This document shows positions 1 through 2,497 of a stretch of 64,000 nucleotides of DNA, piece by piece. Source of the stretch: Yersinia proxima. GTDB lineage: Bacteria > Pseudomonadota > Gammaproteobacteria > Enterobacterales > Enterobacteriaceae. The position numbers were made by a program, and so were the translations under genes. Numbering within the stretch: the stretch's first letter is position 1; each line of letters opens with the position of its first letter. Where the stretch lies: contig NZ_CABHYG010000011.1 of NCBI RefSeq assembly GCF_902170785.1, positions 372,001 to 436,000 of the forward strand, read 5' to 3'. The notes below the pieces were generated by a model that was not told the DNA's origin, did no database searches, and was given only the letters and a program-made list of their open reading frames with translations.

Positions 1-1809
1 GTTTTGCTCGAGATCCAGATGCAGTTCAATTGTCAGCCCGCATGCAGTTGAAGGGAGTGGCTCTGCGGCAGAGTAATAGGGTAATTCGTAGCCATCCAGA
101 AACTGGGTGATTTCACCGCAGAGCGAGGAGGGGAGCTGCGTGGGTATAATGATATGCAGCTCTTCAGGTAGCGGATTTTCAATAGCATAATGCGCAGAAA
201 TAGCAGGTAGGGCTATAGTCACCCGCGAACCCACTCCCGGCTGACTGGCAATGGCCAGATGTCCTCCGCTGAGATGCATATTTTTCTTAGCGACAAATAA
301 TCCCAGCCCTGTACCTTTGGGATGAGGGGTATCGCTACCTGCGTGTACGAGTTTGCCTTGATAAAACGGCTCTGAAAGCCGTGCCAGTACCTTACTGGGG
401 ATACCGGTGCCGGTATCAATTACCTCAATACTGAACATATACTTGCCATTCACTTGCGGTAATGAACACTCGATCAATACCATACCGCCATGAGTGTGTT
501 TTATGGCATTGCTGACAATATTATTCAGTGCCTGAGAAAGCAGGGCGCTATCGATCAGGTGGGGTAAAAAGAACTGCTTTGACAGGTAGCGAACCTGAAG
601 TGTGGTGCCGTGTGTTTCGGCAAAACTGATAAACAGTTTGACCGTGGTATCGCATAACTCTGCCAGCAACTGCGGCTGAGGATTTTGAGTGACCGAACCG
701 GCATTGATTTTGGCGTTATCCAGTGACAGATCAAGATTATCCAGCAATTCTCGCGTGACATGAATAACGTTAGCGAGCCTTTCCCGCTGGCTGATTGAGG
801 TTATTTTGTCTACCAGTCCTTCGCAGGCGGTTAGAATACCAATCAATGGTGTGCGTAATTCGTGTGCAATAACCGACAGTTCCAGATTATTTTTAGACCC
901 CAGTCGGATGAATGCCATTTTTAACTGTCGGTTACGATAATAGACAAATAACAGCAAGCATAACAATGTAATGGCCAGACTATAGTAGTACCAACTTGGT
1001 TGGATATTCTCCGGTTGAGAACTCGTGTCGCCGAGCATCCATTTTGCCATGAGATCAGATTGCTGTTTGGCGGAAACGGACGCGATGACTTTGTTAATAA
1101 TATCGATCAGGATCTGATCTTCGGGCCGTGCACTCATTACTCTGGGGATCTTCACTTTATGGGGATGTGACATTTTTAACTGCCCAGGATGAACGACATT
1201 CATATAATAAAGTGCGGTGGGTGAGAGGACGACCGCAGCTTTAGCTCGCCCGTGTATCACTTCACCGATTGCCTCTTCGGGCGAACGCGATACTTTATAA
1301 TTAATACTGGGAAATTGTTCAGTAAACCATTCAATCAGCGACAGATAGTCGGTGATGGAAACATAACCTTCCAGTAGATCATCTGGTGTTTCGATATGGC
1401 GCGTCGCCTTACGCGTGACGGTGACTGGCCAGGTAGAAAACATTGGAATGCTGCTTGCCAGCCCCTTAGCCTGTGCGAATGCGCTGGATGTACTGGTGAG
1501 TAGCGAGACATGGCCGCTTTGCAGATTCACAAAAGGTCTAATGCTATTGTTACTGAATACCGGCTGAAATTTTATTCCGGTAGCGGCGGAGATGATATCG
1601 ATATAATCCCGAGTCAGCCCAATATGCTCCCCAGTGCTATTAAAATTCTCAATAGGATAAAAATGTGGGGATATACCATATTTTACCACCGGATTTTCCT
1701 CTATATAACGCAGTTCCTCCGGTGAGAAATTGATGGTGGCGGTATAACCACTTGTCGATGAAAGTAGAGTAAACGCCGATATCAGATAGGCTTTATAAAG
1801 AAATTTCAT
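1..1809 (-). CDS. Hybrid sensor histidine kinase, YsrS paralogue (C-terminus cut by the window edge)
   Basis: Open for 603 codons from ATG at 1809 to the left edge with no stop; its C-terminal part lies outside the window. In order it has a signal-like hydrophobic N-terminus, a periplasmic domain of the bacterial solute-binding type 3 family (about residues 25-260), one membrane segment (about 275-300), a HisKA dimerisation domain with the phospho-accepting histidine in IAHELRTPL (His316), and an HATPase domain with the N box NNIVSNAIKH and glycine-rich KGTGLGL. After the ATPase it continues in line with YsrS at 19180-21546, which goes on to a receiver domain, so a receiver is expected here too. 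By eye the kinase core is nearly identical to YsrS, while the periplasmic sensor is clearly more diverged. Its start overlaps the end of the regulator gene at 1793-2497, so the two are co-transcribed. The input signal is unknown. Confidence 0.9.
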   Translation of the reverse strand, partial: MKFLYKAYLISAFTLLSSTSGYTATINFSPEELRYIEENPVVKYGISPHFYPIENFNSTGEHIGLTRDYIDIISAATGIKFQPVFSNNSIRPFVNLQSGHVSLLTSTSSAFAQAKGLASSIPMFSTWPVTVTRKATRHIETPDDLLEGYVSITDYLSLIEWFTEQFPSINYKVSRSPEEAIGEVIHGRAKAAVVLSPTALYYMNVVHPGQLKMSHPHKVKIPRVMSARPEDQILIDIINKVIASVSAKQQSDLMAKWMLGDTSSQPENIQPSWYYYSLAITLLCLLLFVYYRNRQLKMAFIRLGSKNNLELSVIAHELRTPLIGILTACEGLVDKITSISQRERLANVIHVTRELLDNLDLSLDNAKINAGSVTQNPQPQLLAELCDTTVKLFISFAETHGTTLQVRYLSKQFFLPHLIDSALLSQALNNIVSNAIKHTHGGMVLIECSLPQVNGKYMFSIEVIDTGTGIPSKVLARLSEPFYQGKLVHAGSDTPHPKGTGLGLFVAKKNMHLSGGHLAIASQPGVGSRVTIALPAISAHYAIENPLPEELHIIIPTQLPSSLCGEITQFLDGYELPYYSAAEPLPSTACGLTIELHLDLEQN

Positions 1810-2497
1810 GGGCATATTGGAAAAAGTCGGTGTTTGAAGTCAGCCCCAGTTTTTTGAAAGCGCGTATTTTCGTGTTGGATACTGTTTTAAAACTGATATT
1901 CAGACGCGTACTGATCTCTTTTTGTTTCACGCCATTGAGTAACATTCTTAGGACTTCAGTTTGACGCACCGTTAAAGCATACTGTGTGTCATCTTTCGTG
2001 GATGAAGGTAGTGCTGCCAACTCAATAGGGAAGAATTTCTTACCACGAGCGACATACGAGATAGCAAAAAATAGTTCCTGAATATCATTACTCTTGCGTA
2101 CAAATCCCCATGCACCCGCCTGCCAGGCAAGACGCGCTACTATCAGACTTTTATGAGCGGTATGCACAATAATTTTCAAGGCAGGACGCAACTGAAGAAG
2201 GCGTTTGATAAGCCCTGCACCATCTTGAGACAGTGATACATCTGTCCCTGCTTCGTAGTCTGCCAGTGAATAATCCAGCAACAGCACTTCTATCTCAGGG
2301 TTACTTTTGAGTAATTGAATGAGTTCGGATGCATTGCTGGCATAACCAGCCACGTGAAGTGAAAAGGCGCTGGAAATAAGCTGACGTTCCGGCTTTTTGT
2401 AATGATAAGGATACTTTTTTAATATCTCCATTAGTGCAAGGCGGCTGAAAGGTTCATCTTCGATCATTGCTATATTTAACGTTTTCGTTGCTCTCAT
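1793..2497 (-). CDS. LuxR/NarL-type response regulator, YsrR paralogue
   Basis: A 234-residue regulator with an N-terminal receiver domain (acidic pair in IEDEPFSRL, phospho-acceptor Asp75 in LLLDYS, conserved Lys in VRKS) and a C-terminal LuxR-type helix-turn-helix containing RLNISFKTVSNTK. It is about four-fifths identical by eye to YsrR at 21530-22240, with most differences in the receiver's surface loops and few in the DNA-binding helix. It overlaps the kinase gene that follows by 17 bases, forming a two-gene operon pointing away from the PepSY gene. Target genes are unknown. The near-identical recognition helix suggests it may bind sites like those of YsrR. Its place beside chiY and the T2SS makes those loci plausible targets, which is inference. 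Confidence 0.9.
   Translation of the reverse strand: MRATKTLNIAMIEDEPFSRLALMEILKKYPYHYKKPERQLISSAFSLHVAGYASNASELIQLLKSNPEIEVLLLDYSLADYEAGTDVSLSQDGAGLIKRLLQLRPALKIIVHTAHKSLIVARLAWQAGAWGFVRKSNDIQELFFAISYVARGKKFFPIELAALPSSTKDDTQYALTVRQTEVLRMLLNGVKQKEISTRLNISFKTVSNTKIRAFKKLGLTSNTDFFQYAHEISL

Follow-up and report, generated by a model that had tools for sequence, protein, structure and literature searches.

A second YsrR-YsrS-type pair beyond the type II secretion cluster of Yersinia proxima: a possible further input to the Ysa relay

In the stretch of the Yersinia proxima genome studied here (C10:372001-436000 of a 4.71 Mb genome, 64,000 nucleotides in all and called the window below), two pairs of genes for a response regulator and a hybrid histidine kinase lie on either side of a type II secretion system (T2SS) cluster. 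The right-hand pair (R, 19180-22240) is ysrR-ysrS of the Ysa type III secretion system (T3SS); the left-hand pair (L, 1-2497) is a complete and clear paralogue of YsrS/YsrR, not a near-identical one. L is kept in four genomes, is under purifying selection and has no gene of its own for a histidine phosphotransfer (HPt) protein. We give a probability of about one half to the reading that L is a working YsrS-YsrR paralogue providing a second input to the Ysr/Ysa output through a shared HPt protein, YsrT. New here are the distribution of the two pairs, the partial gene conversion of the transmitter, the lack of an HPt gene beside L and a repeat in the L promoter region.

Completeness, retention and constraint of the left pair

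1..1815, minus strand, open at the window edge: L kinase (ysrS paralogue), whole gene at L003:11461-13815; from the open reading frame (ORF), the left flank and Pfam matches
1793..2497, minus strand: L regulator (ysrR paralogue), with a receiver (Asp75) and a LuxR/GerE helix-turn-helix; from ORF, domains and motif
6121..17407, no strand assigned: T2SS gene cluster between the two pairs, given as context; from ORFs and domain matches
19180..21552, minus strand: R kinase YsrS, 790 aa, His320, Asp713; from ORF, domains and motif
21530..22240, minus strand: R regulator YsrR, 236 aa, beginning 28 bp past the preceding gene; from ORF and domains

The pair at 1-2497 is real and its coordinates were confirmed: it has the order, strand and overlap of ysrR-ysrS, kinase and regulator frames sharing 23 bp in both pairs. 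When the DNA to the left of the window was read, the L kinase proved to be 784 aa long with a complete receiver, which ruled out a broken C-terminus, and no HPt gene followed it. Profile matches gave SBP_bac_3, HisKA, HATPase_c and Response_reg domains, and motifs placed the phospho-residues at His318 (HisKA) and Asp711 (receiver). As in YsrRST, a hybrid kinase with a periplasmic SBP_bac_3 sensor, HisKA, HATPase and a C-terminal receiver has upstream of it an overlapping gene for a LuxR/GerE-type response regulator; by motif, the kinase His, the receiver Asp and the regulator Asp are all three retained. At E<=0.001, a search of the 4.71 Mb genome with DNA 1-2497 returned only the query itself and, at 79%, the R pair.

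Judged by gene order alone (the sequences were not compared), L is almost certainly YE3578 (regulator) and YE3579 (kinase) of Y. enterocolitica, chiY being YE3576 (PMC3521999). These two genes have been listed as a two-component system with function unknown (PMC2266911) and are among the genes of 8081 absent from strain W22703 (PMC3079665). Among the papers listed, we found none devoted to this pair, judging by titles.

The kinases share 78.3% of their amino acids and 79.4% of their nucleotides (dN 0.130, dS 0.779), and the regulators 83.3% of their amino acids (dN 0.104, dS 0.759). The preliminary description had called the pairs near-identical, which is too strong for the whole (kinase 78%, regulator 83%), while the uneven pattern behind that wording is real. 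In the window genome, kinase identity is 67% in the sensor, 44% in the transmembrane segment and its linker, 93% in the HisKA+HATPase core, 68% in the second linker and 96% in the receiver; evenly spread divergence is thereby ruled out, and an almost unchanged core beside a more diverged periplasmic sensor, as first described, is borne out. The same is true of the DNA-binding helix. With its position set by eye, the recognition-helix stretch of L carries a single difference from R in the window species, T to I, and in the other three L regulators it is identical to R; regulator identity in the window genome is 84% in the receiver and 79% over residues 165-236. Neither of the two outcomes named beforehand as arguing against retained function with a new sensor was found: divergence is uneven and the C-terminus is whole.

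At the thresholds used, relatives of YsrR and YsrS occur in 10 of 25 Yersinia genomes, six of which carry the ysa-side pair alone. Two regulators are found in four: the window genome (G000), Y. artesiana (G004), Y. aldovae ATCC 35236 (G001) and G007. The pairs visibly flank the T2SS cluster in G000, G004 and G007; in the broken Y. aldovae draft, the L pair adjoins the same PepSY gene on a short contig and the R pair is found where a contig ends, which fits the flanking arrangement. On the far side of G011, the region past the PepSY gene and a RhoGAP-domain gene is present without an L pair, which was either lost or never there. Among 295 genomes of the family drawn outside the genus, one further relative besides the window genome was detected, with a ysrT-like frame adjoining it, and a contig scan returned 9 loci, 3 of them in Yersinia.

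Purifying selection acts on the L kinase, and on its sensor no less strictly than on that of R: omega between L copies is 0.07-0.11 in the sensor, 0.06-0.08 in the core and 0.06-0.07 in the receiver, and between R sensors 0.11-0.16. Frames are open in 3/3 L kinases readable to their end and in 4/4 L regulators. Y. aldovae contributed its regulators only; a contig end truncates its L kinase, the frame of its R kinase is broken near a contig end, and both kinases were left out of the kinase trees and rate tables. The regulators behave otherwise than the kinases. Nonsynonymous changes between species, L versus R, number 32.5 v 5, 48 v 8, 44.2 v 11 and 55.7 v 19, silent changes being about equally numerous (Fisher p 1e-5 to 8e-4 in four comparisons that share species), and the L regulator is still under selection. 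This looser constraint disfavours the strict view, taken in the preliminary description, that only the input has changed; L also has an upstream region of its own and no HPt gene. A decaying duplicate without function, alike to R through gene conversion only, could have the looser regulator, could lack the HPt gene and could be missing from the same site in G011. It would not be expected to keep every readable frame open or, outside the converted part, a sensor omega as low as that given above, and we regard it as very improbable.

Gene conversion of the transmitter half and the origin of the pair

In G007, the L and R kinases are nearly identical at silent sites from codon ~325 to 775, and their sensors differ. 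The proportion of differing silent sites (pS) between the two G007 copies is 0.10 in the core, 0.01 in the linker and 0.02 in the receiver, against 0.33-0.54 to other species, and the longest run of unchanged silent codons, 109, was reached in 0/2000 shuffles. The trees point the same way. L and R form separate clades in the sensor tree (100/99 each); in the transmitter, approximately unbiased (AU) tests, run with G021 left out, reject the L and R clades for the core (p-AU 1.2e-7, 1.9e-8), for linker+receiver (5e-14, 1e-74) and for codons 307-780 together (1e-72, 2e-4), and the two G007 copies join each other with support of 100/99 to 100/100. Silent sites and trees rule out purifying selection alone as the cause of this likeness and show gene conversion of the transmitter half in G007. 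No paper that brings gene conversion together with the sensor domains of paralogous histidine kinases was found, judging by title.

The rejection of the transmitter clades is due to G007: once this genome is removed, an L clade is recovered in the transmitter tree (100/100). In the window's lineage, conversion is likely, older, partial and less certain than in G007. If the copies are older than the species split, silent divergence between L and R should exceed that within L and within R throughout, an expectation that fails in the core and holds in the receiver. In the window genome, L/R pS is 0.59 in the sensor, 0.33 in the core, 0.45 in the linker and 0.53 in the receiver. Between the window species and Y. 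artesiana, pS in the core is 0.37 for L-L and 0.33 for R-R, so that the L/R value is about equal to these and not lower; sensor values are lower (0.28 and 0.21), and in the receiver L/R exceeds both L-L (0.29) and R-R (0.42). When L/R is set against L-L plus R-R, the transmitter is poor in silent differences between the copies by comparison with the sensor (Fisher p 7.6e-5 for the window species and Y. artesiana, 0.020 for the window species and G007, 0.058 for Y. artesiana and G007). In the two species other than G007, the sensor has 67 class-separating sites against 13 variable within L and 13 within R, and the fast linker, which is the telling part here, 19 against 22 and 29.

By sequence, the pair could have arisen either by duplication in place or by transfer from a lineage like G006 or G011. 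In the sensor tree, L groups with G006 and G011 (89/91) and a grouping of R with those two is borderline in the AU test (p-AU 0.0499). G006 also has the kinase-RhoGAP order of L, its RhoGAP-domain gene lying after the kinase, with the T2SS missing from the locus and ysrT from the genome. The regulator tree, which has a strong L clade (100/99), instead places L and R together (90/88), and an L+R grouping of the sensors is not rejected (p-AU 0.136). Transfer with later exchange of the transmitter with R, which concerns the origin only and is compatible with L as a second input, seems to us rather unlikely.

The HPt relay, the promoter repeat and the likely output

18939..19187, minus strand: ysrT, an 82-aa stand-alone HPt with His38, overlapping the end of the R kinase, with a longer GTG start possible at 19217; from ORF, HPt match and motif

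We take the HPt gene after the R kinase to be ysrT, the subject, reportedly, of a study by Walker et al. 2010. YsrT has been named as the third component of the system (PMC3467454). The preliminary description mentions neither ysrT nor the lack of a counterpart beside L. The separate HPt gene directly after the kinase that marks YsrRST is absent after the L kinase in 3/3 readable genomes, so L is a paralogue of YsrRS and not a second YsrRST set. The window genome gave 7 HPt matches, YsrT alone in a short frame (93 codons) and the other 6 in frames of at least 690, and a second stand-alone HPt for L was ruled out by this search. As the genome encodes a single stand-alone HPt, three routes are left to L: YsrT itself, an HPt fused to some other protein, or signalling with no HPt at all. 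By analogy, an HPt would dock on the receiver and on helix 1 of the regulator. Both are nearly unchanged between L and R, which favours use of YsrT; conversion or common descent would leave the same likeness.

YsrT relatives occur in 8/25 genomes, and G006 and G001 are the two ysr carriers in which none was found. The HPt search in relatives covered 7 of the 9 other ysr-bearing genomes (G001 and G015 were left out), and the R contig of G001 ends inside the kinase, so that the presence of YsrT there cannot be judged. G006, which is one complete contig, has 7 HPt matches, all in frames of at least 738. Its ysr locus (G006:C1:3863588-3866621, L038) is a natural test of whether YsrS works without YsrT, and a TAA flagged in its kinase proved to be the gene's own terminal stop.

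L might alternatively signal without YsrT, or drain YsrT or YsrR as a phosphatase or decoy and so hold ysa down. The missing HPt gene beside L and a ysrRS pair in G006 without any stand-alone HPt both fit such a role, as does the report that a receiver-Asp mutant of YsrS raises target expression (PMC5436829), by which the YsrS receiver may also restrain the relay. Against such a role stand the three phospho-residues that L has and a regulator still under selection, and we hold it unlikely.

2498..2699, minus strand: upstream region of the L pair, kept in 4/4 two-copy genomes; from alignment
2560..2578, minus strand: repeat AATCCG-N4-ATTCCGTTT in the L promoter region; from pattern search
28327..28345, plus strand: repeat ATTCCG-N4-ATTCCGTTT between the divergent ysa operons; from pattern search and alignment

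The upstream region of L is its own and ~200 bp long, whereas only 28 bp separate the R regulator from the gene before it; no sigma-70-like site was found in the L region. It contains a repeat that recurs in the ysa region, where both ATTCC halves are kept in 9/9 aligned species (G021 was not aligned). With <=1 mismatch, the whole 4.7 Mb genome has three sites (the seed, the L promoter and C19:130752) against 0.7 by simulation; the third, with one mismatch, lies past a gene that is presumably ampE-like, and no T3SS link was seen there. The repeat could be a candidate site for YsrR, the L regulator or RcsB, which belong to one broad regulator family; RcsB is a described ysa activator (PMC3467454).

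The reading that we favour combines these observations. The L kinase would sense through its own BvgS-type periplasmic sensor, and its receiver would hand phosphate to YsrT, encoded ~16 kb away, which could pass it to YsrR, to the L regulator or to both; two sensors would converge on one relay and so act on the Ysr/Ysa output. Conversion has evened out the transmitter halves in G007 and probably did so, at an earlier time, in the lineage of the window species as well, each sensor remaining private. As the repeat is common to the L and ysa promoters, the two are probably coactivated, whether for feedback or as a second checkpoint, and this repeat is the one observation that bears on an action of L on ysaE and the Ysa T3SS. 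We infer the use of YsrT by L, the common output and the feedback. That two signals could feed one output had been suggested at the outset; the single stand-alone HPt and the shared repeat favour it. The unchanged core, in view of the conversion in G007, is not purely a sign of retained output. More doubtful, and offered tentatively, is the proposal that conversion preserves interchangeable transmitters, which could pair into mixed dimers and pass phosphate to the one HPt, YsrT, and that selection maintains two distinct sensors, so that two signals would merge at an 82-residue T3SS relay.

Several results weigh against the favoured reading or limit the evidence for it. Shuffling gave no conversion tract in the window species (733/2000) or Y. 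artesiana (155/2000), and the count for a comparison between species, window-species L with G007 L, was low (18/2000), as it was for the two G007 copies. Without G007, the R transmitter clade is not rejected (p-AU 0.11 for all positions, 0.105 for third positions). The contrast in class-separating amino acid sites with G007 included, 68/306 up to codon 306 versus 2/484 after it, follows for the most part from the conversion in G007; leaving that genome out gives 91/306 versus 29/484, with 19 of the latter in the linker. The R regulator clade is weak (59/33), and the L regulator has accumulated ~3 to 6.5 times more amino acid changes between species than that of R. G006 keeps ysrRS and the ysa genes without YsrT or any other stand-alone HPt. 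The repeat was spotted by eye first and counted afterwards; at <=2 mismatches it shows no genome-wide excess (14 versus 12 for a control pattern), ATTCCGTTT occurs 3 times in the window, a count reached in 4/100 shuffles, and the longer repeat at <=2 mismatches occurs 10 times there (4/100 shuffles), mostly within genes by coordinates. We found no expression or binding data on L.

It is also conceivable that L runs a separate circuit that hardly affects ysa and serves its own neighbours (the downstream RhoGAP-domain gene, chiY or the T2SS). Its own upstream region, its looser regulator and the RhoGAP-domain gene 101 bp downstream of the kinase in the same direction would suit this arrangement, which we nevertheless judge quite unlikely: the recognition helix is nearly unchanged, the RhoGAP-domain gene is kept without L in G011, G014, G015, G016 and G021, the repeat at <=2 mismatches has no match in 2579-23950, a span covering the T2SS cluster, and a separate regulator of yts1/chiY, PclR, has been described (PMC3521999). 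The last two points also bear on the initial suggestion that the copies split between T2SS and T3SS, for which we found no support.

18897..18911, minus strand: 15-mer TTCGAAAAATGAAAG after ysrT, recurring before the RhoGAP-domain gene in relatives

The RhoGAP-domain gene (L003:10238-11359, minus strand, left of the window; PF00620, E 1.2e-7) encodes a eukaryote-type domain and holds a GIFR motif, which resembles an arginine-finger motif. PF00620 occurs in 9/25 genomes of the genus, all of them ysr carriers, and in 0/14 control genomes; G007, the tenth ysr carrier, has only a remnant of the gene. The protein is a candidate Ysa effector, and judging by titles we found no paper on such a Yersinia RhoGAP-domain protein. 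TTCGAAAAATGAAAG recurs ahead of this gene, without mismatch in G006 and G011 and with 2 mismatches at the three L loci that could be read, and its copy beside ysrT is possibly a relic of the RhoGAP-domain gene promoter; as a genome-wide regulon site it was ruled out (16 matches versus 11 for a control). A 397-aa ORF, transposase-like by eye, lies ~350-1540 bp past the R kinase of G007 (L034), between ysrT and a cytochrome b gene. ChiY (window 4207-5703) has LPMO_10 and GbpA domains; its identity is 64-69% in G004, G007, G011 and G016, and that of the adjoining T2SS genes 81-98% in G004 and G007.

Comparison with known systems

If the favoured reading is true, Ysa experiments that changed ysrS alone may have missed a second input, and this input could bear on the unclear natural signal of the Ysa system, for which the known inducing condition has been called artificial (PMC3892342).

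Two paralogous two-component systems likewise occur together in one cell as Roc1/Roc2 in Pseudomonas aeruginosa and as ChrSA/HrrSA in Corynebacterium. Significant cross-talk is stated for ChrSA/HrrSA, and the opening parts of the abstracts on both mention neither gene conversion of the transmitter nor a shared stand-alone HPt. The sensor of L is of the Venus-flytrap type, as in BvgS and EvgS, and by sequence matches the second flytrap domain of BvgS (4q0c, E 1.7e-23; 3mpl, 2.8e-13) and EvgS (9ilw, 1.9e-8). BvgS and EvgS have a fused HPt and two flytrap domains, whereas L has one flytrap domain and no HPt fused at its C-terminus. L has the same order of domains and of genes and the same overlap as YsrRST of the Y. 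enterocolitica Ysa T3SS, to which R corresponds (identity 78% for the kinase, 83% for the regulator); it differs in lacking an HPt gene, where R has ysrT, and in having an upstream region to itself, a sensor that has diverged and a regulator under weaker constraint. After duplication, two-component pairs are as a rule expected to grow insulated from one another. Here the segment that determines partner specificity has become alike once more in at least one species, the sensor has not, and the window genome has one stand-alone relay gene.

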